In this document: piece by piece, positions 5,863 to 44,528 of the stretch
Position numbering within the stretch: position 1 is the first letter of the stretch
How the letters are laid out: the number at the start of each line of letters is the position of its first letter
Assembly: GCA_026399575.1 (NCBI GenBank)
Contig: JAPLQS010000011.1
Span: 1 to 64,000 of the forward strand
Direction of reading: 5' to 3'
Source of the DNA: Nitrosospira sp.
Lineage (GTDB): Bacteria; Pseudomonadota; Gammaproteobacteria; Burkholderiales; Nitrosomonadaceae
Length of the DNA stretch: 64,000 nt
Translations under genes and position numbers: made by a program
Notes under the pieces: model-generated
Seen by the model: only the letters and a program-made list of their open reading frames with translations
Database searches by the model: none
Told to the model about the DNA's origin: nothing

Positions 5863-5914
5863 ATTTTGCGCCAGGCGCCTTCGAATCTGGATTACGGGAG
5901 ACTGAGTTAAGATC

Positions 5915-27521: not shown

Positions 27522-27577
27522 ATTCCTACAGAAGAATAAGCAAATTCCTACAGCAGAACATGGACCCATCCAGCACA
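27522..27577 (+). promoter_or_regulatory. Regulatory element A (22-bp-period ATTCCTACA repeat) of the acyltransferase/GGDEF-EAL operon
   Basis: ATTCCTACA occurs at 27522-27530 and 27544-27552, a period of exactly 22 bp (about two helical turns). CCAGCACA follows at 27570-27577. The same arrangement is found at 43199-43254 and 43845-43901 before PilZ genes. A TCCTC-containing segment precedes the first repeat in all three. The layout suggests a dimeric activator binding one DNA face upstream of a promoter; the regulator is unknown. It lies 172 bases upstream of the acyltransferase start. Confidence 0.65.
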
Positions 27578-27616
27578 ATCACTCCTCGAATTGTTGCCAA
27601 GCAAGTGGAGGCAGAG

Positions 27617-27736
27617 ATGGAACAGTCAAGTAGAGAAATTGCTGCAGATGGATTGACTGGAATGTTGAGTCGGTGTGATCTGAATGATGCGCTCTGGTGC
27701 GAACTCCGGGCTGGTTCAAAGGTTATTCAAGGTTAG
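27617..27736 (+). CDS. Possible small protein or leader peptide (39 residues)
   Basis: An ATG at 27617 has a strong Shine-Dalgarno GGAGG at 27607-27611, five bases upstream. The frame runs to a TAG at 27734-27736, 13 bases before the acyltransferase ATG at 27750. The peptide starts MEQSSREIAADGLTGML and has a CDLNDALWCEL segment; I recognise no family. Its position between element A and the operon suggests a leader peptide or a small regulator. An upstream in-frame ATG at 27560 would overlap element A and is less likely. Copy 1 has no intact equivalent. Coding status is unproven. Confidence 0.4.
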   Translation: MEQSSREIAADGLTGMLSRCDLNDALWCELRAGSKVIQG

Positions 27737-27749
27737 CGGGAGAAAATAT

Positions 27750-28604
27750 ATGCCAAATGATATGCTGAACGCTTTCGACGAATATTTCGAAGTCGTCATT
27801 GCCGATACTCCGGAATTGCTGGAACAAGCATTCCGCTTGCGCTACACAGTGCTGTGTATTGAAGAGCGACTCCCGGGGTTTGAAGCTGCACGCTATTCCG
27901 ATGGGCTGGAAACAGATGACCATGACCGCCACTCTCACCATCTTTTGTTAAAGCATCGTCCTTCCGATACCTTCATAGGTGGCGCACGCTTGATACTCCC
28001 TGACCCACTAGAAATGGAAAGGCCGTTTCCTGCTGAACAGTATGCCCAGATTGATCCCGCATTGATCGACAACAGCAAGCTGTCGCGGCAGCACACCGCA
28101 GAGATTTCACGTTTTATCCTGGTTGGCAAATATTCCAGGCGCAGAGAAGAGCGGCGCAGATCTGAGAGCGTGGCAGTTGGCGGAAAGCGTGACCCAGGCA
28201 ACCGGCGGCGTTTCCCTCACCCGATGCTGGCAATTTCTGTCGGCATCATACGCACGTGTATCCGCCACGGCATTACCCATTGGTTCTCAGTAATGGAGCC
28301 TGCCCTGAACAGATTGCTGGGACTCTATCAACTACAGCTTGATCCTGTCGGACCGCTAACCGATTATCATGGCCCGCGCCGACCTTATTATGCCGAGATA
28401 AGCAAAGTGCTGGAGAGACTGCACACAAACAATCTCCCGGTCTGGGAGCTGGTTACCGATCAAGGCAAAGTCCTGCCGCTTTCCACAATTTGCACACCGG
28501 ATCAAATGCGTAAGGCCAGCATAATTCCCGAACCCCGGAAAAGCAGTGTATTGGGTAATCTGTCGCGGCCCCAGATTCAGGTAGAAGAGAGCATGGGTAA
28601 ATAG
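27750..28604 (+). CDS. PEP-CTERM/exosortase system-associated acyltransferase, copy 2
   Basis: A 284-residue paralogue of the gene at 26273-27037, alike from the shared start MPNDML through ELVTDQG. It has FRLRYTVLCIEERLPGFEAA, LETDDHDRHSHHLLLKH, FIGGARLI and EISRFILVGKYSRRRE. The ATG at 27750 has GCGGGAG upstream; a longer frame from 27684 overlaps the small reading frame. Unlike copy 1 it keeps a C-terminal tail to residue 284. Its TAG overlaps the GTG of the next gene, so it is the first large gene of a four-gene coupled operon behind element A. The acylated product is unknown. Confidence 0.87.
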   Translation: MPNDMLNAFDEYFEVVIADTPELLEQAFRLRYTVLCIEERLPGFEAARYSDGLETDDHDRHSHHLLLKHRPSDTFIGGARLILPDPLEMERPFPAEQYAQIDPALIDNSKLSRQHTAEISRFILVGKYSRRREERRRSESVAVGGKRDPGNRRRFPHPMLAISVGIIRTCIRHGITHWFSVMEPALNRLLGLYQLQLDPVGPLTDYHGPRRPYYAEISKVLERLHTNNLPVWELVTDQGKVLPLSTICTPDQMRKASIIPEPRKSSVLGNLSRPQIQVEESMGK

Positions 28605-29068
28605 TGATATTAGCGACTAAAAAAATGATTAATCGCAGTTGCCGATTTGTCCTGCTGCTGACCCTGTTGCTCGGGATGCTGTCTGCTATTGGGGTGGCGC
28701 GGGCACATGAGCATTATGAGGTCGTGGTTAACGCCAATGTCACTGCGCGCAGCCTCCCCAGTAATTCACTGCGTGCCATTTTCGGCATGCGCCAGCAAAC
28801 CTGGCCGGACGGCACAGCAATAAAAGTCTTCGTCCTGGCCGATGACGCGCCATTACATAGTTCCTTCTGTAAAGAAAAACTGAGCGCATTTCCCTACCAG
28901 TTACGTCAAGCTTGGGACCGGATGGTTTTTTCCGGTACCGGCCAAGCCCCTACTAGAGTGTCTTCGAGTGAGGAAATGTTTGACAAGGTTGCCAGCACAC
29001 CCGGTGCGATCGGTTATTTAGAAAAATCAAAAATCAGTGAGCGTATCAATGTCCTCCAAATCAAATAG
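28604..29068 (+). CDS. PstS-like periplasmic substrate-binding protein (single small domain)
   Basis: A 154-residue exported protein with a signal peptide ending near ARAHEHY. It has the short PstS-like pattern VVNANVTARSLPSNSLRAIFGMRQQTWPDG, followed by AWDRMVFSGTG and TPGAIGYLEKS. These half-size relatives of phosphate-binding proteins often sit beside sensor or cyclic-di-GMP genes rather than ABC transporters, and none is present here. The GTG at 28604 overlaps the preceding TAG (TAGTG); an ATG at 28625 is an alternative. A ligand-sensing role for the GGDEF/EAL protein is inference. Confidence 0.75.
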   Translation: MILATKKMINRSCRFVLLLTLLLGMLSAIGVARAHEHYEVVVNANVTARSLPSNSLRAIFGMRQQTWPDGTAIKVFVLADDAPLHSSFCKEKLSAFPYQLRQAWDRMVFSGTGQAPTRVSSSEEMFDKVASTPGAIGYLEKSKISERINVLQIK

Positions 29069-30356
29069 CCGCGTGAATAACCCGCGCACCAAGGTAGCCA
29101 AACTGATCGCTATGTTGGCCATGGTGTGGAGCTTGCCTGCGCAATCTCAAGTGCTACCTGAAACTTTAAAAGTTCCCGACTTTTTAAGCGCGACCGCAGC
29201 GCGGATGAGCGCACTGAAACTGCCCGACACCGTGCAGGTTCATGGCTTCGCCACCCAGGGCTATATGAACTCCACGGGGAATAATAATGTCTTTGGAAAC
29301 AGTAACCAGGATAGCGGCACTTTTGGTTTCAGGGAAGTGGGACTCAACGCTTCGGTGCAGTTAAGGCCCAACCTGCTGATCTCGGCGCAGGGACTCCACC
29401 GCCATGCCGGTCAAGGCAGCCAGGACATTCGTCTCGATTACGGAGTGATCGATTACAAGGCATATTCCGGTGAAAACAGCCAATTTGGCATACGCTTGGG
29501 CAGGATAAAAAATCCGCTCGGTTTCTACAACGAGACGCGCGATGTCGCGCATACGCGGCCGAGCATCATGTTGCCCCAATCGATTTACTTTGATCGCTCA
29601 CGCAACCTGGCGATGGCAGCAGACGGCGGCCATGTCTATGGCGAGACCCGCACCAGCAAGGGAGACTTCTTCTATCAGTTCGGCGTAGTCATGCCATATG
29701 TCGGTGGCACAACCACCGAGGCAGCCTTGCTGGGCAGTGATCGAGCAGGTCACCTGACCTCGCAAGTGTCGTATATCGGACGCGGGATATATGAGTATGA
29801 TGGCGGGCGTGTCCGTTTGGCAGTCAGCGGAGCGCAGACGAATGTAAATTACAATCGAGGAGCCGACCCTGCGTTGCTTTCTGGTCAGATTCAATTCACG
29901 CCGATTATTTTCTCCGCGCAATATAATGCCGAGCGCTGGAGCCTCACTTCCGAATACGCCATCCGCCACACTGTAGCTAACAACTTCGGCGTGGCCTTAC
30001 CTAATTCGGCAACTACCGGCGAGAGCTACTATTTCCAGGGCATTTACCGGTTTACTCCAAAGTGGGAAGGCGTGATACGCTACGACGCGCTGTATACAAA
30101 CAGAGACGATCGTCACGGACATACGTATGCCGCCGCAAGTCCCGCCACACGTGATCCGAATAGCCGCTTTGCCAAGGATATAACTACAGGTATCCGCTGG
30201 AATGTTACCCCCTCATTCATGCTGGCTGCGGAGCATCACTATGTCAACGGCACTGCCTGGCTCGCGCCGCTGGATAACCCTGGTGCCAGCAGCCCCGCAG
30301 GTCATCACGCCCAGCACTGGCATCTGTTCGCGGTGCAGGGTTCCTTTCGATTCTAA
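29049..30356 (+). CDS. Outer-membrane beta-barrel (porin-like) protein
   Basis: A 435-residue protein starting at the ATG at 29049 (a GTG at 29037 is possible). A signal peptide ends near PAQSQVLP. Alternating hydrophobic strands follow, and the C-terminus ends in phenylalanine (GSFRF), the usual mark of outer-membrane barrels. It starts inside the 3' end of the PstS-like gene and its TAA is followed directly by the ATG of the GGDEF/EAL gene. Substrate is unknown. It may deliver the ligand sensed by its neighbours, which is inference. Confidence 0.78.
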   Translation: MSSKSNSRVNNPRTKVAKLIAMLAMVWSLPAQSQVLPETLKVPDFLSATAARMSALKLPDTVQVHGFATQGYMNSTGNNNVFGNSNQDSGTFGFREVGLNASVQLRPNLLISAQGLHRHAGQGSQDIRLDYGVIDYKAYSGENSQFGIRLGRIKNPLGFYNETRDVAHTRPSIMLPQSIYFDRSRNLAMAADGGHVYGETRTSKGDFFYQFGVVMPYVGGTTTEAALLGSDRAGHLTSQVSYIGRGIYEYDGGRVRLAVSGAQTNVNYNRGADPALLSGQIQFTPIIFSAQYNAERWSLTSEYAIRHTVANNFGVALPNSATTGESYYFQGIYRFTPKWEGVIRYDALYTNRDDRHGHTYAAASPATRDPNSRFAKDITTGIRWNVTPSFMLAAEHHYVNGTAWLAPLDNPGASSPAGHHAQHWHLFAVQGSFRF

Positions 30357-33305
30357 ATGGCCATCCTGATAGAACATGACTCTCAGGAAGGCACAGTTCC
30401 ATCCAAGGGCGCTCGCTTCGGGCTGCACAAATTTCTAGGCTTGAAGTGGAAGGTCTTGCTGCTGAGCAGCTTGATTCTGTTTGCCATCGTAACTTTATTT
30501 ACCGTAATCAGTTACCGGATTCTAATAACCAATTTCGAGAGTCAAAGCGAGGTGCAATACCAGCGCTATATCAAGGAAGTTGAAGGCTTGATTGGACAGA
30601 CCTCGCAGAATCTGCATCAGCTTGCCGGCTTGACTCCTTTCCTGAAGGGCATGGACACTGGGCTGCTTGCAAGTGACGGAATAAGCATCACCAATGCATT
30701 CGACCTGCATTGGGCATCATTGCAGTTGCATAACGGGGTCCATCTGGTGCGCTTTTACGACAAGTCAAGCCAGCGCATGGCAAGCTGGGGGGCCATTGAA
30801 TTCAATGCCCACAAGGAAAACGAGATACTGGCATGGGTTAAAGAGGTCAATAGTCGGGAGCAGCCCATCAGCCCGCTAAGTTGTGCCGAAAACTGCGTGC
30901 AATACGCCGTTGAGCCCCTGCTGGTAGAGGGTAGAAGTGTTGGCGTCATAGTTATCGGAGCTTCCCTGGTTGACGCGGTGCTGGGCTTTGAGAATATCGC
31001 AGGTGCTGATATCGGCCTGCTTGTCAGGGAACAAAGCGGCACACCGGCGGATATTGGTAACGGCATGCGAATTCCGGGCTGGAATGCGCGCATAGCGGCA
31101 CTTACCAATAGCACAGCAAATCTTCCCCTTCTCAAGCAAGCGGCAGCGAAACACTCAAGCCTTGATGAGCTGGGAAAAGGTGTTGAACTCACCTGGGAGG
31201 ATCGTCACTACCAACTAAGGCAGTTGCCGCTGCGAGGGATAACTGCATCCTCCGGGGCACGGTTGGTAGCTATCACCGATACCACCACTACAGTCGACGC
31301 CATTCGCAATTCGACCCAGCAGAATGTGGTGATAGGCCTGCTGGGCTTGCTGCTCTCGGAATTCCTGTTGTTTATCATTCTTACCAAGCCGCTGTCACGG
31401 CTGAAACACATAGTCTTCAGCTTGCCGCTCCTGGCCCAAAGCGATTTCAAGAACTTCCGCAGCGCACTTCTTTCCGCCGATCAGAAACAGTGGCTGAAAG
31501 ATGAAATAGACCTGCTGGATGAGACGGCAGCAGCGCTGTCTTATCAACTTGAGACACTTGAGGGCCAGATTGCCGACCGGACAGAGGCATTGGCCAGGCA
31601 GATGAGCGAGCTGAGCAAGGAAAGAGACTTTGTTGCACACTTGCTCGATATGGCGCAGGTGATTGTGATTACACAAAATGCCAGTGCCGAAATCATCTCG
31701 CTCAATGCTCATGGCGAAAAGATTATTCAATATGCGGAAAAGGACTTGAAGGGCAGGCCTTTCATTGATCTGCTGGTGCTGGAAGACGATTTACATGATC
31801 TGCCTCCCCGGCTTGAGGAAATATGCCTGGAACAAAGGGAACAGTTGCGGCATGAGACCACTACCATGTGTAAAGATGGTACGGTACGGCATATCGTCTG
31901 GTTGCATTCCCGTCTTAACCGGCATTCTCCAAATGACCCGGCGGTATTATCGGTAGGCCTTGATATCACCGAACACAAGCAAGCGGAAGGCCGCCTGGCC
32001 TGGCTGGCGGACCATGATCCGCTGACGCATTTGTTCAACCGCCGCCGCTTTCAGGAAGAACTGGAGCGGTTACTCAACCTGGCGACGCGTTATCAACGGC
32101 CAGGCGCGCTGCTTTTCTTCGATCTGGATCAGTTCAAGTACATTAACGATACCAGCGGACACCAGGCGGGCGATACTCTGCTCAAGACGGTTGCAAACAT
32201 GCTGTTACGCGCCGTGCGCAATGTCGATATAATCGGACGCCTGGGCGGGGACGAATTTGCGGTGCTGCTGCCTGAAACCTCGGCGGCAGGGGCGATTACG
32301 GTGACAAAATCCATTCTCGAGCTATTGGGCGAGGCGCGGCTGACCGTGGACGACCGGACTCACAGGGCCTCCGCCAGCATCGGTATCGCACTCTTTCCGG
32401 AGCATGGCAATGATGTGCATGAGCTGTTGGCTGCAGCAGATCTGGCCATGTACCAAGCCAAGGACGCGGGGCGCGGCGGCTATCACCTATACTCCGAAGA
32501 AGACAAGAGTCGCGAACGCATGCATAACCTGGTCCACTGGAAAGAAAAGATTGAGCTTGCTCTCCTCAATGATCGCTTTATCCTCTACTTTCAGCCTATT
32601 ATGCATGTCCAGAGCGGAACCCTCAGTCATTGCGAGGCGCTGCTGCGCATGCTTGATGACGACGGAACGGTGCTTGCACCGGCTGCCTTCATCTCCGCAG
32701 CAGAGCGTACCGGTCTTATTCACGAGATTGACCATATGGTGTTGCGTAAAGTCATCGCCCAGGCGGCTAGCGTCAACCTCAACCATAGTGGGCAGCGGAT
32801 TAATTTCTCGATCAACTTGTCCGCGCATGCGTTTAATGACCCAAGGCTATTGCAGACTCTGGATGAGGCGCTTGCGGAGAATGCAGCCAACCCCACAGAT
32901 TTTCTGTTTGAAATAACCGAGACGGCGGCATTGGAAGACATGCCCGCAGCGCGCAAGCTCATAGAGACAATCAGGGCGCTGGGGTGCCGTTTTGCACTGG
33001 ATGATTTTGGTGTCGGTTTCTCTTCTTTTGGTTACATCAGGCAACTTCCCATCGATGTGGTGAAGATCGACGGGTCATTTATTAAGAACCTGGCCACCAG
33101 TCCCGATGACCGGATTCTGGTAAAGGCCTTATGCGATGTGGCGCGAGGATTCGGCAAGAAAACCACGGCCGAGTTTGTGGAGAACGCAGAGACGCTCGCC
33201 TTACTGGGAGATCTGCATGTAGACTATGCGCAGGGTTATTTTGTCGGCAAGCCCGTGCCAGCGGGCGAGTCGTTCTTTAAACATCTGCTAAAAGCTGCCA
33301 GCTGA
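30357..33305 (+). CDS. Membrane sensor with PAS, GGDEF and EAL domains
   Basis: A 982-residue inner-membrane protein. TM1 is at residues 33-55, a periplasmic sensory region at about 56-320, TM2 at about 322-343, then a coiled-coil linker, a PAS domain at about 425-545, a GGDEF domain with intact RLGGDEFAVLL (630-634) and an EAL domain with intact CEALLRM (near 759), DDFGVGFSSFGY and VKIDGSF. Both the cyclic-di-GMP synthesis and hydrolysis sites look competent, so net activity cannot be told. It starts directly after the porin stop codon. Its periplasmic part could read the PstS-like protein; the PilZ proteins at 42710-44408 are candidate receivers. Confidence 0.93.
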   Translation: MAILIEHDSQEGTVPSKGARFGLHKFLGLKWKVLLLSSLILFAIVTLFTVISYRILITNFESQSEVQYQRYIKEVEGLIGQTSQNLHQLAGLTPFLKGMDTGLLASDGISITNAFDLHWASLQLHNGVHLVRFYDKSSQRMASWGAIEFNAHKENEILAWVKEVNSREQPISPLSCAENCVQYAVEPLLVEGRSVGVIVIGASLVDAVLGFENIAGADIGLLVREQSGTPADIGNGMRIPGWNARIAALTNSTANLPLLKQAAAKHSSLDELGKGVELTWEDRHYQLRQLPLRGITASSGARLVAITDTTTTVDAIRNSTQQNVVIGLLGLLLSEFLLFIILTKPLSRLKHIVFSLPLLAQSDFKNFRSALLSADQKQWLKDEIDLLDETAAALSYQLETLEGQIADRTEALARQMSELSKERDFVAHLLDMAQVIVITQNASAEIISLNAHGEKIIQYAEKDLKGRPFIDLLVLEDDLHDLPPRLEEICLEQREQLRHETTTMCKDGTVRHIVWLHSRLNRHSPNDPAVLSVGLDITEHKQAEGRLAWLADHDPLTHLFNRRRFQEELERLLNLATRYQRPGALLFFDLDQFKYINDTSGHQAGDTLLKTVANMLLRAVRNVDIIGRLGGDEFAVLLPETSAAGAITVTKSILELLGEARLTVDDRTHRASASIGIALFPEHGNDVHELLAAADLAMYQAKDAGRGGYHLYSEEDKSRERMHNLVHWKEKIELALLNDRFILYFQPIMHVQSGTLSHCEALLRMLDDDGTVLAPAAFISAAERTGLIHEIDHMVLRKVIAQAASVNLNHSGQRINFSINLSAHAFNDPRLLQTLDEALAENAANPTDFLFEITETAALEDMPAARKLIETIRALGCRFALDDFGVGFSSFGYIRQLPIDVVKIDGSFIKNLATSPDDRILVKALCDVARGFGKKTTAEFVENAETLALLGDLHVDYAQGYFVGKPVPAGESFFKHLLKAAS

Positions 33306-33340
33306 TTTATTTCAGAGACTTGGGCGGCGGCTTTGAAGTC

Positions 33341-34621
33341 TCAGATGGTTTTGCCGAGCAACCGCACTTCCCGTTGCGGGAAAGGGATTTCGATACCGTT
33401 GTTCTGAAATTCCCGCCAGATTTCCATATTGATGGCGGAACGCAAGCCAATCTGCCCTTCCTCCGGGTCGCTAATCCAGAAACCCAGTTCGAGATTGATG
33501 CCGTTGTCGGCAAATTCCTTCAGAAATGTCATTGGCTCCGGATCGGTGAGCACACGCGACTGCTTGCGTGCTGCTTCCTGCATGATACGCATGGCCGCTT
33601 CCAGCGGGCTGCCGTAGCTTATCTGCACGGTCAGCGCCAAGCGCACCTGATTGTTGGTATGCGTCTGCTTGACCACGGTGGAAGTGATAAAGGTGTCGTT
33701 GGGAACGATGGACTCGACGCCGTCAAGACCATGCAGCACCACGTAACGATTGGTGAGATCGACGACCTTGCCGGTACGGTTGTCTACCGTCACCACGTCG
33801 CCCAGCCGCAGCGAGTGATCCAACAGGATAATGAAGCCGCTGACATAGTTGCTGGCGATTTTTTGCAGGCCGAGTCCCAGGCCTACGCCGAGCGCACCGC
33901 CGAATACCGATAGCACAGTGACATCCACCCCGATCAGCGGCAGCGTGATCAGCACACTCAGCAGAATAAGCATGGTGCGGGCAACTTTCGACAGCATCAC
34001 CCGCTGGTTCATATCCATCGCTGCGATACTCATGACCCGTGATTCCAGCGAACTGGCGAGCCATAATGCCAGCAGCATGCTGACCGTGAATACCAGAATT
34101 CCCTGCAGGATCAGCAATACTGAGAGCCGCTGCTGGCCAACGTGAAAGGCAACAGCATCGAGCATGCCTAGTATTTCCGGCAGCACGCCGATGATATGCA
34201 GCGCCAGCACGATCCATATGGTCCAGCCGATGGTCCGTTCCCATGGATGCAGCCACTGCTGATCGTGAAAAACCCGGCGCAATATGTAAATGGCGATGCG
34301 AATCAGCGCGAGCGCAAACAACAACGGGATGGCGATATTGAGCAGATGCGTCGAGTGCCAGTGCTGGAGCGCCCATCTGCCGAGAACTACCAGGACCAGC
34401 GCAAACAGGGGGAACATGAGCCGGCTCCAGTTGTTTGCGCTGATAATGGGCGCGCGCTCGGCGCTAACCTGTGAGGTGATGCGCCCGGCGAGTTGTCTTT
34501 GCAGCAGCCAGGCGGCCCCCAGACTTGCGAGCAGCACGGCGAACTGCCACAGGGCGCTGATTTCCTGTACGTCAGTAATCAGATTGCTTAGTAGACTCTG
34601 GAATTCGTTATTGGGTTGCAT
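33341..34621 (-). CDS. MscS-family mechanosensitive channel
   Basis: A 426-residue inner-membrane protein with about five transmembrane segments. The MscS pore helix region is GGALGVGLGLGLQKIASNYVSG, read as adjoining short motifs FGGALGVGLG and LQKIASNYVSG. The beta domain follows (LDHSLRLGDVV, DLTNRYVVLHG, VPNDTFI). Opens on membrane tension at hypo-osmotic shock. Convergent with the GGDEF/EAL gene. Confidence 0.92.
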   Translation of the reverse strand: MQPNNEFQSLLSNLITDVQEISALWQFAVLLASLGAAWLLQRQLAGRITSQVSAERAPIISANNWSRLMFPLFALVLVVLGRWALQHWHSTHLLNIAIPLLFALALIRIAIYILRRVFHDQQWLHPWERTIGWTIWIVLALHIIGVLPEILGMLDAVAFHVGQQRLSVLLILQGILVFTVSMLLALWLASSLESRVMSIAAMDMNQRVMLSKVARTMLILLSVLITLPLIGVDVTVLSVFGGALGVGLGLGLQKIASNYVSGFIILLDHSLRLGDVVTVDNRTGKVVDLTNRYVVLHGLDGVESIVPNDTFITSTVVKQTHTNNQVRLALTVQISYGSPLEAAMRIMQEAARKQSRVLTDPEPMTFLKEFADNGINLELGFWISDPEEGQIGLRSAINMEIWREFQNNGIEIPFPQREVRLLGKTI

Positions 34622-34718
34622 GGCAATGTGCTGGAACGGGAATTTATTCTAGCATGAGCGGGACGAGGTGAACTGCGGGCATCCTACGTTTGTTGTAACA
34701 AAATCGCAGAATGCGCGG

Positions 34719-35291
34719 TTAGCGGTAAGGTTGCGAATGCTCGTAGTGCTGCTGCCAGTTTTTCAGATAAAGCTCGGTGAGTGCCGCGTTGCCGCGTATC
34801 ACCAGCACGTTCTCTGCATTCTTGTATTGCGCAGCATGGGTGAAGTTGAAGCTGCCGGTCACCAGCGCTGTTTCCGGACTGCCGGCGTCGATTACCATCA
34901 CCTTGTTATGCGCGCTGGTGTGATCAGCATCGAGGAAAACCGGCACACCAGCTGCTGCGATCCTGGCGATCACGCTGGTTGGAATTTTCTCGGTCTGTTC
35001 CTTGTCGGCAATCACTTTCACATCCACGCCACGGCGTTTGGCAGCGATCAGTGCTTCGGCGATTTGGTAATGGGTGAAACTGAACGCCTGCACTAGCACC
35101 TGGCGGTGTGCGCCGTTGATGGCGCTCGCGATCAGATTGCCGGCATCATCACCGGGTGTGAAAGCAGTTTGTATCGTACCGGTGGCGGGGAGAGTGATGG
35201 GCTTGCCGTTGTGGCTGGAAGCCGGCTCGAAAGCCGTGGCGGGAGCGGCAAACAGGACAGCCAGGTAAACTGCGATAACAGCAGTACGCAT
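34719..35291 (-). CDS. Exported phospholipase D-family nuclease (single HKD motif)
   Basis: A 190-residue protein from the ATG at 35289-35291 (MRTAVIAVYLAVLFAAPATAF), which gives a clear signal peptide; a longer frame only shadows the upstream gene. It has one HKD motif (HNKVMVID, followed by GSFNFT), typical of the Nuc-type endonucleases that dimerise to form the active site. Its start is two bases after the stop of the RsmB-like gene, so the two are coupled. Confidence 0.88.
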   Translation of the reverse strand: MRTAVIAVYLAVLFAAPATAFEPASSHNGKPITLPATGTIQTAFTPGDDAGNLIASAINGAHRQVLVQAFSFTHYQIAEALIAAKRRGVDVKVIADKEQTEKIPTSVIARIAAAGVPVFLDADHTSAHNKVMVIDAGSPETALVTGSFNFTHAAQYKNAENVLVIRGNAALTELYLKNWQQHYEHSQPYR

Positions 35292-35293
35292 GT

Positions 35294-36553: not shown

Positions 36554-36665
36554 CTATCGTTGATCCTACAAAGAAGTGGAGAGAGTGAATATCTTGCTTA
36601 TTGGGAAGACAGGTATTGTAAGTGCCGATACGGGACATGCATGGCGCCCATGCCTGTAAGCCGGT

Positions 36666-37400
36666 CTATGGCAACAACTCCAGTTCCAAACGCAGTGCGC
36701 TGGCGTCAGCGTAGTTTATTTTTGTGACCATCTGGTCCAGCAACAGATCGCTTTCGGTAGCGACGATGCGCACTGGCAGCATGTGATAGGCGGGGGCAAG
36801 CCAAATTTTCCGGTAGAGCTTGTCATCCGCTGCCAGCTGTTTTGTCAGCACAATGGTGTCGAGTTTGCCTAGTGGTGTGTCCAGCGTTTCCTTGTCCACG
36901 ATGTAGCGTACCAGCTTGAGGCTGCGGCCATCGGTCTCATATATGTCCATGATTCCGTCGGGAGGTGGGGAAAATGCGAAGCTGTATAACAGGCTCAATC
37001 GGTCCTGGGTACCTGCGGGCAGGGGAGCTTGCTGCTCGTTGCCCCGATTGTTGATAGTCAGCAAACTCTTTTCCCAATCGAAAATGGCGATTCTGGGCAG
37101 CCTGTCACGGCGCTGATCGGAAAAGCGGCCAGGTTGTAATCCCTGTTCGGTGATGCTGCCCACGCTATCACGCAGGATATTGCCTGACTGTACCAGCGCC
37201 AACAGACCGATAGCGCGGACTGCGCTGCTGATTGCATAATTGCGTGTACCGTTTTCCTGCCTGATCTCGAGGGTGTCATTCGCTTCTCCTTCCATGGCGC
37301 CGGATCGGATCGAATAGCTGATGTCGACGCGGGTAGGAAGATCGTCGGCCAGGGTAGAAAAACTCAGTCCCCAAATCAAGGCAACAGCCAGAAGTCTCAT
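36666..37400 (-). CDS. DUF3108-domain exported protein
   Basis: A 244-residue protein with a signal peptide (MRLLAVALIWGLSFSTLADD) and the DUF3108 pattern: YSIRSGAMEGEANDTLEI near the N-terminus and PLGKLDTIVL with AYHMLPVRI near the end. Family function is unknown; members sit next to purN in many betaproteobacteria. It overlaps purN by four bases (ATGA), so it is translated from the purM-purN transcript. Confidence 0.82.
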   Translation of the reverse strand: MRLLAVALIWGLSFSTLADDLPTRVDISYSIRSGAMEGEANDTLEIRQENGTRNYAISSAVRAIGLLALVQSGNILRDSVGSITEQGLQPGRFSDQRRDRLPRIAIFDWEKSLLTINNRGNEQQAPLPAGTQDRLSLLYSFAFSPPPDGIMDIYETDGRSLKLVRYIVDKETLDTPLGKLDTIVLTKQLAADDKLYRKIWLAPAYHMLPVRIVATESDLLLDQMVTKINYADASALRLELELLP

Positions 37401-38035
37401 TTGTGTAATCCCGGCGAATATAAAACCGCGCCATCAGTTGTGGCGTCGATTACCTCAACACAGTTATGGGAAAGTTGCAGCCGATCTTCCAGAAACCAGC
37501 GTATGGCTTCGGGATAAATGCGGTGTTCCTGCTGCAGCACCCGTGCTGCAAGGGTTTCTGCGGTGTCGTCCGGCAGCACCGGGACTGCGGCCTGAACAAT
37601 GATCGGGCCGTGATCGACCTGTGATGTAACAAAATGTACGGTGCAGCCGTGGATTTTTACACCTTCCTGTAACGCGCGCGCGTGCGTGTCGAGGCCGGGG
37701 AAAGCCGGCAACAACGATGGATGAACGTTCATCAGCCTGCCGTGGTAACGATTGACGAAGATGTCTCCGAGTATGCGCATGAAACCGGCAAGCGCCACCA
37801 GGTCAGGCTGATAGGAATCAATTTTTTCCGCCAGTGCAGCGTCGAATGCTATGCGGTCGGGATAAGCCCGTTGATCCACCACCTGTGTTTCGATCCCGCG
37901 CATCTCTGCGATTTCCAGCCCCTCGGCCCCCGGTCTGTTGCTGATGACCGCAGCAATCCTGCCGGGCAGGCTGGCTTCGATCAGTGCCTGCATGTTGCTG
38001 CCGCGACCGGAGATGAGAATGACAAGGGATTTCAT
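37397..38035 (-). CDS. purN: Phosphoribosylglycinamide formyltransferase
   Basis: Transfers a formyl group from 10-formyl-THF to GAR in purine synthesis. The 212-residue protein has LISGRGSNMQALI at the N-terminus, LAGFMRIL and the catalytic MNVHPSLLPAFPG plus GCTVHFVT and D in DHGPIIVQ. It lies 33 bases downstream of purM. Confidence 0.97.
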   Translation of the reverse strand: MKSLVILISGRGSNMQALIEASLPGRIAAVISNRPGAEGLEIAEMRGIETQVVDQRAYPDRIAFDAALAEKIDSYQPDLVALAGFMRILGDIFVNRYHGRLMNVHPSLLPAFPGLDTHARALQEGVKIHGCTVHFVTSQVDHGPIIVQAAVPVLPDDTAETLAARVLQQEHRIYPEAIRWFLEDRLQLSHNCVEVIDATTDGAVLYSPGLHK

Positions 38036-38068
38036 GGTGCTGTTAGCAGGATGGGCTCGCTTCGCCGT

Positions 38069-39127
38069 TTACTCAACTATCGTTTGCGCTTCACCTGCGC
38101 CGCGCTGGCGGATGGAGCCGATACGCCACACGGTTTCACCTGCGGATTGCAGCATCTGCAGGGCGGCATCGGCATGCTCCGGCGCAATCACCAGCGTCAT
38201 GCCGATGCCGCAATTGAAGACGCGGTGCATTTCACTGTCAGTGACATTACCTTGCTGTTGCAGCCAGCGGAACAGTGGCGGCATCTCCCACGCGCTTTTC
38301 TGCAGTACAGCAGTGACGCCTTCAGGTAAAACGCGTGGGATATTTTCCACCAGTCCGCCGCCAGTAATGTGCGCCATGCCTTTCACCGGCAGATGCCGCA
38401 TCAGTTCCAGCAGCGGCTTCACATATATCCGGGTCGGCGCCATGATCACATCGCTTAACGTGACACCGTTGAAGTCGGCGGACAAGTCCGTGCGGTTTTT
38501 CTCGATGATCTTGCGGATCAGCGAGTAGCCGTTGGAATGTGCGCCGCTGGAGGCCAGTCCCAGCACAACATCGCCTTCCTGGATTGTGAGGCCGGTGATG
38601 ATATGGTCTTTCTCCACCACGCCCACGGCAAAACCCGCGAGATCATATTCGCCTTCCGGGTACATGCCCGGCATCTCTGCAGTCTCACCGCCAATCAAGG
38701 CGCAGCCCGCCTGCTCGCAGCCGGCAGCAATGCCTTTGACAACGCGGGTGGCAGTATCGACATCAAGTCTGCCGCAGGCAAAATAATCCAGGAAGAACAG
38801 CGGCTCTGCTCCTTGCACCAGAATGTCGTTGACGCTCATTGCCACCAGGTCTATGCCGACACTGTCGTGTTTGCCGAGCTCGAAAGCGAGTTTCAATTTG
38901 GTGCCGACACCGTCGGTGCCTGACACCAGCACCGGGTTACGGTATTTTTTGGAGATTTCAAACAGCGCGCCAAAACCACCGATGCCAGCAAGCACTTCCG
39001 GGCGCATGGTGCGCTTGGCATAGGGTTTGATGTTTTCCACCAGGCGATCGCCGGCATCAATGTCCACACCAGCATCGCGGTAGGACAGATGGGTTGAGAG
39101 CGGGTTTGCCGAATCGGATGCAGTCAA
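38069..39127 (-). CDS. purM: Phosphoribosylformylglycinamidine cyclo-ligase
   Basis: Closes the imidazole ring of AIR with ATP. The 352-residue protein begins [19 protein letters not shown] and has [24 protein letters not shown] and [13 protein letters not shown]. First gene of purM-purN-DUF3108. The 217-base gap to the divergent PerM gene carries the promoters, but no operator is recognisable. Confidence 0.97.
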
Positions 39128-39344
39128 GGGCGCCTCTAAAAATTCAAAGTTCTAAGCAGACACATTTACTGGTTGAGAGTGCGAATGAAAAATGTAGACG
39201 CAACATATGCTTATAGATAAGGCTAGTTTTTTGCGAACGACACAGTATTGCAACGGAATTTAAATTTTTGCAGGTGTTCGTAAGTTGAGTTCTCATCTCA
39301 TTGCAGATAGAGTGCCACTTTCAAGAAATGTGATTTTACCGTAA

Positions 39345-40406
39345 ATGGACTCCAAACACTCCGACGATCTGCATTATCTATGGTGGCTGGCGCTGGCCAC
39401 CGTCGCCGGGGTGCTGGTTTATCTGTTAAGTCCGATACTCACGCCATTTCTGCTGGCGGGGGTCATTGCTTATATCTGCAATCCACTGATGACGCGACTG
39501 GCGGCGGGAAAAATTTCGCGCACCTTCGGCGCCCTGCTGGTGATGGTGCTGTTGCTGGGCGTATTTGTGGCATTGCTTCTGATCATGCTGCCGCTGTTCG
39601 AACAAGAAGTCTCCCGTTTGATCGAGCGGGTACCGGCTTATCTTGAAACAATCAAAAGCAACCTGATTCCATTGCTGGAAACGCATCTGGGCATCAGCCT
39701 GCAACTGGATATTGCCACGCTCAAGCAGCTGCTGGCGCAGCATTGGCAAAGCGCGGGCGGAGCGGCGGCGAAGCTGCTGCCATCGCTCACCAGCGGTGGC
39801 ATGGCGGTGGTGGAGTTTTTCGTGAACCTGCTGCTGGTGCCGGTAGTGCTGTTCTATTTGCTGCGCGACTGGGACGGACTGGTCAGGCAGATCGACGAAA
39901 TGATTCCGCGGCGCTGGCATGAACAGGCGCATACGCTCGCACGTGAAACCGACCGTGTGCTGGCGGAATTTTTGCGCGGACAGCTTGCGGTGATGCTGTT
40001 GATGAGCGTTTGTTACGTGACCGGGCTGTGGCTGGTGGGCCTGGAGTTTGCATTGCCGATCGGGTTGCTGGCTGGTTTGCTGGTGTTCGTGCCTTATCTG
40101 GGTGCAGCGGTCGGCCTGATCCTTGCAACCCTGGCGGCATTGATGCAGTTCCAGGGGTGGAACGGCCTGCTGCTGGTATGGGCAGTATTCGCTGTTGGCC
40201 AACTGCTGGAAGGGATGGTGGTAACGCCGTGGCTGGTCGGTGACCGCATCGGTCTGCATCCGGTGATGGTAATTTTCGCGTTGCTTGCATTCGGCCAGCT
40301 GTTCGGTTTTTTCGGCCTCCTGCTGGCGCTGCCGCTGAGCGCTGCATTGCTGGTATGGCTGCGTCATGCACGCGCACAGTATCTGCAAAGCGAGCTTTAC
40401 AAATAA
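39345..40406 (+). CDS. AI-2E/PerM-family membrane transporter
   Basis: A 353-residue protein with about eight transmembrane segments and the family features: N-terminal LSPILTPFLLAGVIAYI, the middle FLRGQLAVMLLMSVCY and the C-terminal PWLVGDRIGLHPVMVIFALLA. Substrates of the family vary, and AI-2 export is not shown for most members. hda begins on the base after its stop codon, the usual perM-hda arrangement. Confidence 0.9.
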   Translation: MDSKHSDDLHYLWWLALATVAGVLVYLLSPILTPFLLAGVIAYICNPLMTRLAAGKISRTFGALLVMVLLLGVFVALLLIMLPLFEQEVSRLIERVPAYLETIKSNLIPLLETHLGISLQLDIATLKQLLAQHWQSAGGAAAKLLPSLTSGGMAVVEFFVNLLLVPVVLFYLLRDWDGLVRQIDEMIPRRWHEQAHTLARETDRVLAEFLRGQLAVMLLMSVCYVTGLWLVGLEFALPIGLLAGLLVFVPYLGAAVGLILATLAALMQFQGWNGLLLVWAVFAVGQLLEGMVVTPWLVGDRIGLHPVMVIFALLAFGQLFGFFGLLLALPLSAALLVWLRHARAQYLQSELYK

Positions 40407-41090
40407 ATGAAACAACTGCTGCTGGATATCGCCCCGCCGTCGCCGCCCACACTGGCCAATTTCGTGCCGGGACGCAACCGCGAACTGCTACAGGCTCTGG
40501 ACGATATGCTGGCGGGGAAAGAACGGTTTGTTTATCTGTGGGGTGCAGCGGGTTGTGGCAGGAGCCATCTGTTGCAGGCAGTAGTTGTTGCGGCTACGCG
40601 CAACCAACTGAACGCGGTATATGTTAAGTGCGACAGTGCCGACGACATGAGCGCCGCGTTTGCTGCAGCCAGTGCCGCCGACTGCGCGGCAGTGGATAAC
40701 GTGGAGCATCTCAGTGCCGACGCGCAAATCGATCTGTTCAACCTGTATAACCGCATGCGCGACGAAGGTCATGCACGGCTGCTGGTAAGCGGGCTGGTCG
40801 CGCCGGCACAACTGGGGCTGCGCGAGGATCTGGTCACGCGCCTGGGATGGGGGCTGGTTTATCAGGTACATGAATTAACCGATGAGGAAAAAGTACAGGC
40901 CATGCAAAGTCACGCTGCCAGCCGCGGTTTCGATCTGCCGCAGGAAGTGAGCGACTACCTGCTGCGGCATGGGCGACGCGATATGCCGTCATTGATCGCC
41001 ATGCTCGATGCGCTGGACCGCTATTCGCTTGCAAGCCAACGTCAGATTACTGTGCCATTGCTGCGTGAATTATTGCGGGGGGCGCCATGA
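40407..41090 (+). CDS. hda: DnaA regulatory inactivator Hda
   Basis: Promotes hydrolysis of DnaA-ATP with the sliding clamp after initiation. The 227-residue AAA+ protein starts MKQLLLDIAPP, with QLLLDI as the clamp-binding motif. A Walker A-like GAAGCGRSHLLQA and a Walker B-like AAVDNVEHL follow. The start is coupled to the PerM stop. Confidence 0.93.
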   Translation: MKQLLLDIAPPSPPTLANFVPGRNRELLQALDDMLAGKERFVYLWGAAGCGRSHLLQAVVVAATRNQLNAVYVKCDSADDMSAAFAAASAADCAAVDNVEHLSADAQIDLFNLYNRMRDEGHARLLVSGLVAPAQLGLREDLVTRLGWGLVYQVHELTDEEKVQAMQSHAASRGFDLPQEVSDYLLRHGRRDMPSLIAMLDALDRYSLASQRQITVPLLRELLRGAP

Positions 41091-41127
41091 CTCGTTGCCG
41101 TGGAGCGGCCGTTTGTGGGAGGGCACC

Positions 41128-41790
41128 ATGAATCTGGCACTGTTCGATCTCGACAATACGCTGCTGGCTGGTGACAGCGATTTCGAGTGGGCGCAATTCC
41201 TGATCGAGCAGCGCGTGCTCGACCGCGAAGTGTATGAAGCGCGCAATCTGGAATTCTACGAGCAGTACAAAGCCGGCACCCTCGATATTCACGCATTTCT
41301 CGATTTCCAGCTGAAACCATTGTCGCGTCACCCGCGCAGCCAGCTTGATACCTGGCACAGTGAATTCATGGCGAAAAAGATCAATCAATTGATTGCACCC
41401 GGTGCGCGCAAACTGATCGAGCAGCACATGCTCAACGGCGATTTGTGCGCCATCATCACCGCTACCAATAGTTTCGTGACTGCACCAATCGCGCAGGCGC
41501 TGGGCATCAGCCACTTGATCGCCACCGAACCGGAACAACAAAATGGCGAGTTTACTGGCCGGGTGTCAGGGACGCCTTGTTTCAGAGAAGGTAAAATCGC
41601 CCGGTTGGAAAGCTGGCTGGACGAACACAACCTGACCTGGCTATCGTTTCTGGAAAGCTGGTTCTATAGCGACTCGTTGAATGATCTGCCGCTGCTTATC
41701 AGAGTTACCCACCCGGTGGCGGTGGACCCCGATCCGACGCTGCGGAGTCATGCGGAGAAGAACGGCTGGCCCATCATCAGCCTGCGTTAG
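41128..41790 (+). CDS. HAD-superfamily hydrolase (subfamily IB, SerB-like)
   Basis: A 220-residue HAD phosphatase with motif I ALFDLDNTLLAGDSD, motif II in AIITATNSF and motif III/IV FYSDSLNDLPLL. The HAD-IB type acts on small phosphomonoesters. The ATG at 41128 follows GGGAGGG; a longer frame overlaps hda. In many betaproteobacteria the next genes would be pcnB and folK. Here a rhomboid protease follows instead, so the local order is altered. Confidence 0.9.
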   Translation: MNLALFDLDNTLLAGDSDFEWAQFLIEQRVLDREVYEARNLEFYEQYKAGTLDIHAFLDFQLKPLSRHPRSQLDTWHSEFMAKKINQLIAPGARKLIEQHMLNGDLCAIITATNSFVTAPIAQALGISHLIATEPEQQNGEFTGRVSGTPCFREGKIARLESWLDEHNLTWLSFLESWFYSDSLNDLPLLIRVTHPVAVDPDPTLRSHAEKNGWPIISLR

Positions 41791-41882
41791 TATCCGGATA
41801 AGAAAGAAAACGCTGGTGGTAAAAAACGGCCAGCCGCAGCGCCGTCCAAACGTGATTCACCTGAGGGCAGAGGGAGGTTACG

Positions 41883-42458
41883 GTGCGTACCCAGTCGTCC
41901 GTTGTTCAGACCCTAGTCATCATCACCATAGTCGTATTTCTGTGGGAGTCCGATGCCGCCGGCCCGATGGTGAGCGCTTTCGCCCTGTGGCCGCTGCAAG
42001 CCGGTTTCACGCCCTGGCAACTTGTGACCTATGCATTCCTGCATGCCAGCGTTCTGCACCTCGCTTTCAACATGTACGGCCTGTGGCTATTCGGCCGGGA
42101 ACTGGAGTCCTTGCTGGGGCGGCGTGCTTTCCTCCAGTTATATTTCGCCAGCATCCTGACAGCCGGAGTCACGCAGTTGCTGTTCACGCATCTGACCGGG
42201 GATGTTTATCCGACGGTGGGTGCATCGGGTGGCGTATTCGGAATACTGCTCGCCTACGGGATATTCTTTCCGAACCGGGTCTTGATGCTCCTGTTCCCGC
42301 CCATTCCACTGCCGGCATGGCTGTTTGTGACCCTTTACGCAGGTATCGAGCTGACCCTTGGCGTGACCGGGACCCAAGCGGGAGTGGCGCATTTTGCTCA
42401 TCTCGGCGGCATGGCGGGTGGGTATTTGATCATCCGCCGCTGGCGGCGCCGAAGCTGA
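41883..42458 (+). CDS. Rhomboid-family intramembrane serine protease
   Basis: A 191-residue membrane protease with six hydrophobic segments. HLAFNMYGLWLFG carries the conserved H/N motif, the catalytic serine is in GASGGVFGIL (about residue 118) and the catalytic histidine in AHLGGMAGGYL. The GTG start follows GGGAGG at good spacing. Substrates unknown. The following 251 bases to the first PilZ gene show no clear signal. Confidence 0.92.
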   Translation: MRTQSSVVQTLVIITIVVFLWESDAAGPMVSAFALWPLQAGFTPWQLVTYAFLHASVLHLAFNMYGLWLFGRELESLLGRRAFLQLYFASILTAGVTQLLFTHLTGDVYPTVGASGGVFGILLAYGIFFPNRVLMLLFPPIPLPAWLFVTLYAGIELTLGVTGTQAGVAHFAHLGGMAGGYLIIRRWRRRS

Positions 42459-42709
42459 TGGGGTTGTATCCTGGCGTTCTATTGAACGGCTTGAGTGTTA
42501 GACCGAAAGGCCGTTGAGTATCAGGAGGTGATCAGGCTTCAGCTCCACAGTTGCCATTCGTATAAATACGCGAATGCGTGCTGGCGGGCAGACCGGTTGC
42601 AGGGCAGCAGCAAGTAGTTGAACGTTAATGATGAAATAAGGCATCAAGCATGTTTTGTGTGTAGAATTCCATCATTGGCTCATTTCATTGCGGATAACGC
42701 ATTTATCAA

Positions 42710-43084
42710 ATGGCTATAGAAAACCGGGAACCTCGACGTTGTGTCGTGCATTGGCGAATCGCCATCGTTTTCGATGAGGCGGAGAAGAGGCCATCCATCC
42801 ATGCTCATACGCATGACCTGTCGCTCAGCGGCGCTTCCGTACACACCGATCATAACGTGGCCACGAACACGCTGGTCACGGTCCTGTTGTCTCCTCCGGT
42901 AGCGTACGAGGGGGAGCGGCAGAAAGTGATCGAAATCAGAGCGAAACTGGTCTACTCGGTATATTCAGGCAGTAATTTTTGTTTCCGCATTGGTTTGAAT
43001 TTCATCAAATTCAAGAACGATGGCCTACAGATTCTCAAGGATATGCTCGACAGCCAGCTGGATTCTCCAGGATATGCTCGATAA
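42710..43084 (+). CDS. PilZ-domain protein 1 (cyclic-di-GMP receptor candidate)
   Basis: A 124-residue single PilZ domain with both ligand motifs: the RxxxR near residues 5-9 (REPRR) and D-L-S-L-S-G at HDLSLSG. It is the first of three tandem paralogues. Its C-terminus differs from the others: a 31-bp imperfect tandem duplication at 43038-43081 shifts the frame and ends it with SPGYAR. The upstream region resembles that of PilZ 2 near the start codon but lacks the ATTCCTACA element. Confidence 0.85.
   Translation: MAIENREPRRCVVHWRIAIVFDEAEKRPSIHAHTHDLSLSGASVHTDHNVATNTLVTVLLSPPVAYEGERQKVIEIRAKLVYSVYSGSNFCFRIGLNFIKFKNDGLQILKDMLDSQLDSPGYAR
43038..43081 (+). repeat. 31-bp-period tandem duplication at the end of PilZ gene 1
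   Basis: AGGATATGCTCGA occurs at 43038-43050 and again at 43069-43081. Similarity continues on both sides (CAGCCAG versus TAACCAG). As 31 is not a multiple of three, the second copy falls in another frame, and its original reading (DMLDNQ) matches the C-terminus of PilZ 2. Confidence 0.7.
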
Positions 43085-43198
43085 CCAGACTCGCGTGATT
43101 TCGATCAATAGATGCGCCAAGATCACGCATCCAAGACACCTCTGCTGAGATCGCCTAGGACTTGTATCAGACAGATTTACCCACTCATGCTTTCCTCT

Positions 43199-43254
43199 AT
43201 TCCTACAGAAAAATAGGCGAATTCCTACATTGGAATGCCGGCCTATCCAGCACA
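43199..43254 (+). promoter_or_regulatory. Regulatory element B (22-bp-period ATTCCTACA repeat) before PilZ gene 2
   Basis: ATTCCTACA at 43199-43207 and 43221-43229, again exactly 22 bp apart, with CCAGCACA at 43247-43254 (17 bases after the second repeat, as in element A). It lies 107 bases upstream of the PilZ 2 ATG. Confidence 0.65.
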
Positions 43255-43361
43255 CTTCCCCGGTCTTAGTAGTTGAGGGCGCTAATGATAAGACCATGCA
43301 ACAATATATGTTGCGCGTAGAACTCCTGCCCTCACCTCGTCGCACATAGTGCAATCATCAA

Positions 43362-43745
43362 ATGAGTATTGAAAACCGGGGATTTTCGCGTCATTACGCG
43401 CGCTGGCGGATCGCCATCGTTTTCGATGAGTCGGAAAGCAAGCCGACCATCCACGGCCATACGCATGACGTGTCGCTCAGAGGCGCCTCCGTATACACCG
43501 AACATAACGTGGTTTCCAACAAGCCAGTCACGGTACTGCTGTCCCCCCCGCTGGCGCATGAGGGGGAGCGGCAGAAAATAATCGAAATTAAAACGCAACT
43601 AGCTTATTCGGTATATGCGGGCAGCAATTATTGCTTCCGCATCGGTCTGAATTTCATCAAATTCAAGAATGATGGTCTGCAAGTTCTCAAGGACAAGCTT
43701 GATAACCAGATTCTCTTGAGTTCGATAGGGGTAAAACCTGCGTGA
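43362..43745 (+). CDS. PilZ-domain protein 2 (cyclic-di-GMP receptor candidate)
   Basis: A 127-residue single PilZ domain: RGFSR gives the RxxxR motif and HDVSLRG the D/NxSxxG motif. Close paralogue of the genes at 42710 and 43995, sharing the block IVFDE and the NYCFRIGLNFIKF stretch. No other domain is present, so it must act by contacting partners. Element B upstream makes it a candidate member of the same regulon as the acyltransferase/GGDEF-EAL operon. Confidence 0.87.
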   Translation: MSIENRGFSRHYARWRIAIVFDESESKPTIHGHTHDVSLRGASVYTEHNVVSNKPVTVLLSPPLAHEGERQKIIEIKTQLAYSVYAGSNYCFRIGLNFIKFKNDGLQVLKDKLDNQILLSSIGVKPA

Positions 43746-43844
43746 GCGGCCACCTGCTTCGTGCTTCGGTTTAAGGCAAGCAACGTTATGAGAAATTGTA
43801 CCTAAGGCCCAATCAGGTTCCTGCTGCACATTCTGTCCTCCCAA

Positions 43845-43901
43845 ATTCCTACAGAAGAATCGGCGGATTCCTACATCGAAATGTCGCGACTATCCAGCAC
43901 A
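43845..43901 (+). promoter_or_regulatory. Regulatory element C (22-bp-period ATTCCTACA repeat) before PilZ gene 3
   Basis: ATTCCTACA at 43845-43853 and 43867-43875 (22 bp apart), then CCAGCACA at 43894-43901, here 18 bases after the second repeat. Preceded by TGTCCTC, as in element A. It lies 93 bases upstream of the PilZ 3 ATG. Confidence 0.65.
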
Positions 43902-43994
43902 ATTGCTTACATCTCAAGCTCCCAAGTCAAAGCTGCAACCGGGGATGGGAATGGGGCAGTTAAATCATGAAATCAACCTAGCTCGAGACTAAAT

Positions 43995-44408
43995 ATGGCC
44001 ATAGAAGACAAACGAGCGGCTCCACGCTATCGTGCGCACTGGAAAATCTCCATCATTTTCGATGCGGCGGAGAAAAAGCCCATCATTCATAGTTATACCA
44101 ATGACCTGTCGCTCAGCGGCACGGCAGTAAACACCGACCTTAACGTAGCCTCCACAAAACCGGTCACGGTTTTGCTATTCCCGCCATTGAAGTATGGAGA
44201 GGATAAGCAGAAAACAATCGAAATCAGATCGAATCTGGTCTATACAATATATTCAGGTAGTGATTCTTGCTTTCGTATCGGTCTGCATTTCATCAGCTTC
44301 AAGGACAATGGCCTGAAACTCCTCAAGGACATACTCGATCGCCAGTTTTCTGTGGGTTCGAGAGATGAAAAACTTCCGGGAATGCCGGCAGGCGGGGTTT
44401 TTGGCTGA
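43995..44408 (+). CDS. PilZ-domain protein 3 (cyclic-di-GMP receptor candidate)
   Basis: A 137-residue single PilZ domain with RAAPR (RxxxR) and NDLSLSG (D/NxSxxG). It is the most diverged of the three copies, with a longer C-terminal tail (GSRDEKLPGMPAGG). Element C lies upstream. The tandem set arose by duplication; the differing tails may give different partners, which is inference. Confidence 0.87.
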   Translation: MAIEDKRAAPRYRAHWKISIIFDAAEKKPIIHSYTNDLSLSGTAVNTDLNVASTKPVTVLLFPPLKYGEDKQKTIEIRSNLVYTIYSGSDSCFRIGLHFISFKDNGLKLLKDILDRQFSVGSRDEKLPGMPAGGVFG

Positions 44409-44528
44409 AAGACTCTTGGGCCGCATTCTGCGTTTTCACTAGTTTTACAGTGATTCAGCGTCCCGCCACAGCCCAACAGCCCATCTATTGAGAGAGGGTA
44501 TCTGTGAGCGTATCGCAAGGAGCGCTTA

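Follow-up and report, generated by a model that had tools for sequence, protein, structure and literature searches.

The response regulator BvgA recognizes half-sites of the heptad consensus WTTCYTA. At Bordetella promoters, as far as the available extract of the source describes them, BvgA binds as head-to-head dimers with centres 22 bp apart, the nearest of which abuts the -35 region, and the primary site of Pfha is TAAGAAATTTCCTA (PMC7250471). The RcsAB box is given as TaAGaatatTCcta (PMC4325325, extract), and RcsB reads bases via K180 and S184 (PMC5829831, extract). An element that recalls these sites in some respects and departs from them in others is present in Nitrosospira sp. (family Nitrosomonadaceae, order Burkholderiales), in a stretch of 64,000 nucleotides referred to here as the window (assembly GCA_026399575.1, contig JAPLQS010000011.1, positions 1 to 64,000, forward strand), which is part of a 70-kb contig (C90) of a genome of 2.09 Mb in 93 contigs. 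The element consists of two direct copies, exact or nearly so, of ATTCCTACA with a period of 22 bp, and it stands at six places in the genome, mostly ahead of genes of cyclic di-GMP (c-di-GMP) signalling. It is likely that the six copies represent one activator-dependent promoter of the sigma-70 type, bound by a regulator of the NarL/FixJ family and serving a small c-di-GMP regulon.

In the window, ATTCCTACA occurs six times, always on the forward strand, where shuffled sequences lead one to expect 0.17 occurrences; the pattern ATTCCTACA-N{10,16}-ATTCCTACA is found as three pairs, with N13 every time, and not once in 100 shuffles. A pattern search places the pairs at 27522/27544, 43199/43221 and 43845/43867, exactly where a previous reading of this DNA from its letters alone (the sequence-only reading) had put them with a 22-bp period, and their spacers are GAAGAATAAGCAA, GAAAAATAGGCGA and GAAGAATCGGCGG. 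The CCAGCACA that the same reading had reported after each pair is indeed found at 27570, 43247 and 43894, and the TCCTC reported ahead of each at 27513, 43193 and 43836, with the refinement that both are restricted to these three promoters (A, B and C) and are missing from the three sites located elsewhere in the genome (D, E and F). Common to all six are a TC at -6/-5 upstream of the first repeat and a CACAAT-like box downstream (CACAAT in four sites, CACACT and CAAAAT in one each), which follows the second repeat at a spacing of 21 bp in five of the six sites and of 22 bp in C.

The genomic count of six is reached when as many as 3 of the 18 fixed bases of the pattern may differ, a tolerance at which the reversed pattern gives one. 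When the spacing is left free (N8-18), four exact sites are returned, all of them with N13. A 73-position profile built from 12 sites retrieves, at E <= 10, the same six from the genome and none further; 150 of its 817 first-look candidates were scored, and weak sites may be missed. Unpaired copies of ATTCCTACA number 10 in the genome (reversed control, 3), including the two halves counted with E and F. A gene start lies 150-305 bp past the first repeat at every site, and each of the six copies is upstream of, and points at, a gene, none being antisense to it, gene ends being those of mechanically called open reading frames (ORFs). Site D is overlapped by an uncharacterised ORF of 143 amino acids on the same strand, and one site of the related genome G121 by a TTG ORF. 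The sequence-only reading had named enrichment before PEP-CTERM, exosortase, PilZ or GGDEF genes in a genome scan as support for a regulon, with random or intragenic matches as the contrary outcome. All six sites lie upstream of a correctly oriented gene, and in five of the six apparent transcription units a GGDEF or PilZ gene is among the first four genes, out of genome totals of 18 GGDEF and 8 PilZ matches. Such a result has a chance of about 2e-6 (4e-5 when B and C are merged into a single event), for a gene total of 2,000, which is an estimate. The unit behind D is confined to an HDOD gene, and in A and F the c-di-GMP genes come after a first gene of another kind. Together, these counts support the view that the element defines a real, small regulon made up mostly of c-di-GMP signalling genes.

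Among the nine genomes available for the genus, three carry the element: the present one (six copies), G122 (four, i.e. A, B, C and E) and G121 (two, before PilZ genes). Conservation is limited to the presumed promoter. In alignments of the six non-orthologous sites of this genome, anchored on the first repeat and, separately, on the CACAAT-like box, mean pairwise identity is 0.17-0.35 in the flanks, i.e. before about -20 and from 10 bp past the box start; the three 10-bp bins of the core reach 0.93, 0.75 and 0.87, and the start of the -10-like box likewise 0.87. Both ATTCCTACA repeats are nearly invariant, and an A, an AAT and a G between them are invariant. In the element, the paralogous promoters B and C agree at 74% of positions, as against 32% in the flanks; for the G121 paralogs the values are 71% and 43%. 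Between genomes, the element and flank values are 1.00 and 0.89 for A, 0.94 and 0.93 for B and 0.97 and 0.91 for C against G122, and 0.83 and 0.64 for B against G121. At the -10-like position, promoter C of G121 carries TATAAT without a mismatch. In a scan for consensus hexamers, the segment 27000-27900 is free of -35/-10 pairs, as is the forward strand of 42400-44700; the predicted 5′ leaders are of about 85-240 nt. The shape of the conservation supports an activator-dependent promoter with two same-face sites, and not a longer mobile repeat, which is disfavoured because the borders of conservation are sharp. Two other explanations were tried and rejected. A sigma-54 promoter, as known for RpoN-dependent PEP-CTERM genes, would carry the motif TGGCAC-N5-TTGC, which is absent from the three window promoters, and, as to a structured RNA, Rfam gives only a tRNA in the window and no family at gathering score at the element.

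Of 12 sites, 11 have ATTCCTA in both repeats, F having GTTCCTA in the distal one, and the spacing is 22 bp in all 12, eight of which were obtained with a pattern that fixed it. The centre of the proximal site falls at -41.5, as counted from the predicted -10, in six of the eight sites listed, and at -42.5 (C) and -40.5 in the others. The left heptads of the proximal sites are TAAGCAA (A), TAGGCGA (B and D), TCGGCGG (C), TCAGAGT (E) and TAAGCGA (F). Against the BvgA 14-mer, the proximal sites A-F score 12, 10, 8, 10, 10 and 11, of which 6 or 7 come from ATTCCTA itself. Likeness to the Pfha-type promoters of Bordetella extends, within the extract of PMC7250471, to a TTTCCTA-type heptad, same-face centres 22 bp apart, a proximal site abutting -35 and a poor -35, and the proposal of the sequence-only reading that same-face spacing points to a dimeric transcription factor fits this published geometry. 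Unlike BvgA promoters, there are here only two units, the distal one is without an inverted partner and the targets are mostly c-di-GMP genes. As for the RcsAB box, T1, G4, T10 and C11 are kept in 6/6 proximal sites and A3 in 3/6, and ATTCCTA is exactly its right-half heptad while being one base off that of BvgA (according to the same extracts); unlike that box, the sites here are in tandem at 22 bp.

As to the inverted heptads of a BvgA-type site, the proximal left heptad has 2-6 of 7 matches to TAAGAAA and ranks only fourth of 116 in an offset control, in which the top two placements are ATTCCTA itself and the third is the GAANAAT between the repeats; the left flank of the distal repeat has no inverted heptad at all (0-2 of 7 matches). 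Because of the latter, the proximal site would at best be a head-to-head pair, and in view of the offset control a BvgA-like dyad is suggestive, not decisive. A NarL/FixJ-type protein is nevertheless the likeliest regulator, since the ATTCCTA half-site, the 22-bp phasing and the position near -41.5 match BvgA, and by this comparison a response regulator of that family (BvgA/RcsB-like) is rather more probable than otherwise.

Tandem sites of related design occur in metagenome-assembled genomes (MAGs) of Polynucleobacter (L075, L077 and L079), where TTCYTACAnAAGAATnAGAAA units recur with a 22-bp period and an exact BvgA-type TAAGAAATTTCCTA is present in two of the three loci. Unlike the sites described here, these have three tandem units and lie between genes on the opposite strand, and no link to a c-di-GMP gene is seen among the ORFs printed for them. 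They occupy the intergenic space ahead of a permease-like gene of the opposite strand. In a Magnetocorallium contig (L073 1-3160), a ATTCCTACA pair stands between a NarL-type regulator gene, which it follows at 317 bp, and a large ORF, which lies 221 bp further on. The scan of the genome collection also gave two exact-pattern matches in Peptoniphilus, directly behind a gene, which are probably unrelated.

A search for the regulator itself yields eight GerE-domain matches in the genome. None is an RcsB ortholog among the six of these eight that were scanned (all but C69:66814 and C17:10997), the best listed score being 84 bits against a cut-off of 235. The main candidate is a receiver-GerE protein of 211 amino acids encoded on contig C32 (3577-4212), whose gene directly follows, with an overlap, that of a receiver-PAS-HisKA_3 kinase; within the genus, the cluster is present in all three element-bearing genomes and in none of the six without the element, its close members being confined to G122 (93%) and G121 (76%), in genomes that are 51-99% complete. 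In an alignment of the RcsB helix, made by eye and without gaps, the residues at the positions of K180 and S184 are K,T in the C32 protein and in that of C69:42353, K,V in those of C87 and C37 and E,N in that of C17:11946. Several results tell against the candidate: the C69 regulator is also K/T, and the helix therefore does not single out C32; the G121 counterpart reads KTVGTYR; and orthologs of about 59-74% identity are common in sister genera, all nine examined in one of these keeping the KTVSTYR core, yet TARGNNNWTTCCTACA is not enriched there, 26 genomes chosen from 108 giving 11 matches to the reversed control and 4 to the sequence itself. The assignment is tentative because the sister-genus orthologs come without the element, and control by the C32 response regulator may be entertained as a possibility, with considerable doubt.

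The promoter layout could also be kept and the binding protein be of another family, i.e. an AraC/XylS-type activator or the SdiA-like LuxR protein encoded on C26. Activators of the AraC/XylS type bind direct repeats about 21 bp apart that overlap -35, and the strongest signal here is a direct repeat, not a dyad; the C26 protein (best NCBIfam match SdiA, at 87 bits where the cut-off is 350) is found in all three element-bearing genomes. However, it is also found in G119, which has neither the element nor a PilZ match, and the coincidence of ATTCCTA with the RcsAB right half, exactly, and with the BvgA heptad, but for one base, along with the BvgA phasing of 22 bp (all as in the extracts cited above), makes such a binder unlikely, if still worth keeping in sight. 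That a repressor instead binds the repeats as its operator, or that they belong to an RNA leader, is improbable: the sign of regulation is unreadable from the sequence, and the predicted leaders of about 85-240 nt would leave room for a leader function, but the repeats precede the -10-like box and no good -35 hexamer accompanies them, which is the usual location of an activator, and no Rfam family reaches gathering score there.

Still less probable, and indeed hardly to be expected, is the reading of the element as a mobile promoter fragment or dispersed repeat of intergenic DNA, multiplied by copying and standing before signalling genes by chance. Several targets are duplicated (tandem exosort_acyl genes, tandem PilZ genes and a second HDOD copy), as such spreading would have it, and a 23-nt match to element B of G122 lies in an IS30-like ORF of G124. 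Yet the copies number only six, each has the orientation of its gene, their conservation is confined to a segment that runs from about 20 bp ahead of the first repeat to just past the -10-like box, and site B, which alone was compared, has no match at E <= 0.01 in 72,556 plasmid and 50,697 phage records.

A promoter role in vivo, and activation as the sign of its control, are what we infer for the element as an activator-dependent promoter, and some facts weigh against that reading or against parts of it. The flanks are more conserved than the element in two comparisons (E against G122, element 0.95 and flanks 0.97; C against G121, 0.76 and 0.80); neither D nor F is matched by an element-bearing counterpart in the two incomplete MAGs, G122 and G121; and the PilZ protein behind E has RxxxR and lacks [DN]xSxxG, which leaves its c-di-GMP binding uncertain.

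In the family, three of 116 other genomes have a single match each at 1 mismatch (G052, G078 and G103; reversed control, 0); the nearest downstream start is about 890 bp from the G103 match, and that of G078 sits in an 11-bp repeat before an integrase-like ORF, where four [AT]TTCCTACA direct repeats with an 11-bp period stand immediately ahead of that ORF (L123 ~4821-4866, G078:C122). Across the order, the full pattern at 1 mismatch is found in one of 399 sampled genomes, namely the present one (five of its six sites), G121 and G122 being outside the sample. A partial match in G124, inside the ORF that by eye resembles an IS30 transposase, was set aside as not an element; it is the 23-nt exact match to element B of G122 (L127 ~5911-5933, G124:C44), which is improbable by chance. 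PilZ matches number 8 in the present genome and 10 and 5 in the other two element-bearing ones, 2 each in G117 and G124 and 0 in the other four. Site E of G122 (L023, G122:C6 6287-9487) is followed by three consecutive same-strand PilZ matches, that of the present genome by one.

As to how the regulon came about, the HDOD genes of G122, of G121 and of the paralogous locus of the present genome lack the element, and each overlaps a GGDEF/EAL-type gene at that gene's end; the element-bearing HDOD copy at D is 70-74% identical to these element-less copies; the acyltransferase and PilZ targets are members of tandem sets, each of which contains one copy without the element. Since element-less copies exist in the target gene sets, gene copies seem to have acquired the promoter, or, alternatively, D and F could be missing from the two incomplete MAGs. 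One tentative extension, which we hold as possible and short of probable, is that of a dedicated two-component regulon with the c-di-GMP layer itself as its main output, in which a kinase/regulator pair would set the supply of PilZ receptors (three genes), of make/break enzymes and of an HDOD protein, and which would have grown within one small genus by placing the promoter on new gene copies.

Table 1. Positions of the element, its parts and the genes behind it; entries with a contig prefix lie outside the window.
Feature	Position	Strand	Remarks
Site A	27522	+	exosort_acyl gene (27750), two genes without family match, dCache-PAS-GGDEF-EAL gene
Site B	43199	+	short PilZ gene
Site C	43845	+	short PilZ gene
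Site D	C55:11536		HDOD gene
Site E	C37:5907	-	YcgR-like PilZNR-PilZ gene
Site F	C93:6258	-	receiver-PAS-kinase gene, then receiver-PAS-GGDEF gene
Promoter A, distal repeat ATTCCTACA	27522..27530	+	
Promoter A, proximal repeat ATTCCTACA	27544..27552	+	
Promoter A, proximal site TAAGCAA/ATTCCTA	27537..27550	+	12/14 against BvgA Pfha primary site
Promoter A, -10-like box CACAAT	27574..27579	+	predicted transcription start ~27586
Promoter B, two ATTCCTACA repeats	43199..43229	+	22-bp period
Promoter B, proximal site TAGGCGA/ATTCCTA	43214..43227	+	
Promoter B, -10-like box CACACT	43251..43256	+	predicted start ~43263
Promoter C, two ATTCCTACA repeats	43845..43875	+	22-bp period
Promoter C, proximal site TCGGCGG/ATTCCTA	43860..43873	+	
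Promoter C, -10-like box CACAAT	43898..43903	+	predicted start ~43910
exosort_acyl (TIGR03694) acyltransferase, second of tandem pair	27750..28604	+	start codon picked by resemblance to first copy (MPNDML...)
Operon A small protein	28604..29068	+	no NCBIfam or Pfam match
Operon A porin-like protein, by eye only	29037..30356	+	no NCBIfam or Pfam match
dCache_3-PAS-GGDEF-EAL protein	30357..33305	+	GGDEF, RxxD (I-site) and EALLR motifs present
PilZ gene 1, without element	42710..43084	+	RxxxR and DxSxxG motifs present
PilZ gene 2	43362..43745	+	RxxxR and DxSxxG motifs present
PilZ gene 3	43995..44408	+	RxxxR and DxSxxG motifs present

The genes of the window (table 1) agree in part with what the sequence-only reading had made of them. 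The GGDEF/EAL protein and the two PilZ proteins downstream of the element stand, the PilZ cluster of the window being headed by PilZ gene 1; a possible acylated signal from a LuxI-like enzyme is not supported, the acyltransferase being an exosort_acyl protein (TIGR03694), a name that alone does not imply a diffusible signal. Two such genes lie in tandem, at 26273-27037 and 27750-28604, and the element is ahead of the second only. Coupling of matrix export to c-di-GMP had also been raised there as an inference; as to a link with PEP-CTERM/exosortase export, no exosortase is found by NCBIfam among the 49 ORFs of the window, part of them listed only below 1e-40 / 1e-30, the genome not having been searched for one. 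Both PEP-CTERM export and an acyl signal are thus unsupported.

The six copies, their fixed geometry, the restriction of conservation to the promoter and the genes behind them are matters of observation, and a mechanism may be proposed on this basis. Two molecules of a NarL/FixJ regulator, probably dimers, would occupy the two ATTCCTA half-sites on one face of the DNA, 22 bp apart; the proximal one, at about -41.5, would contact RNA polymerase where a good -35 hexamer is absent, and transcription would begin about 7 bp past the CACAAT-like box. Firing of the cognate histidine kinase would then lead to a joint rise of the PilZ, HDOD, receiver-GGDEF and exosort_acyl/GGDEF-EAL products. Such a promoter mechanism is of a kind already known from other bacteria. 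As to the element itself, no study of it is among the literature matches listed, a search for ATTCCTACA with PilZ gives no papers, and no study of c-di-GMP control in Nitrosomonadaceae is among the matches listed. If the proposal is true, a c-di-GMP regulon would be defined for a lineage of this family of ammonia oxidisers, its six promoters located, its transcription starts predicted and its regulator open to test, and it would offer an example of promoter sharing that places second-messenger receptors and enzymes under one switch.

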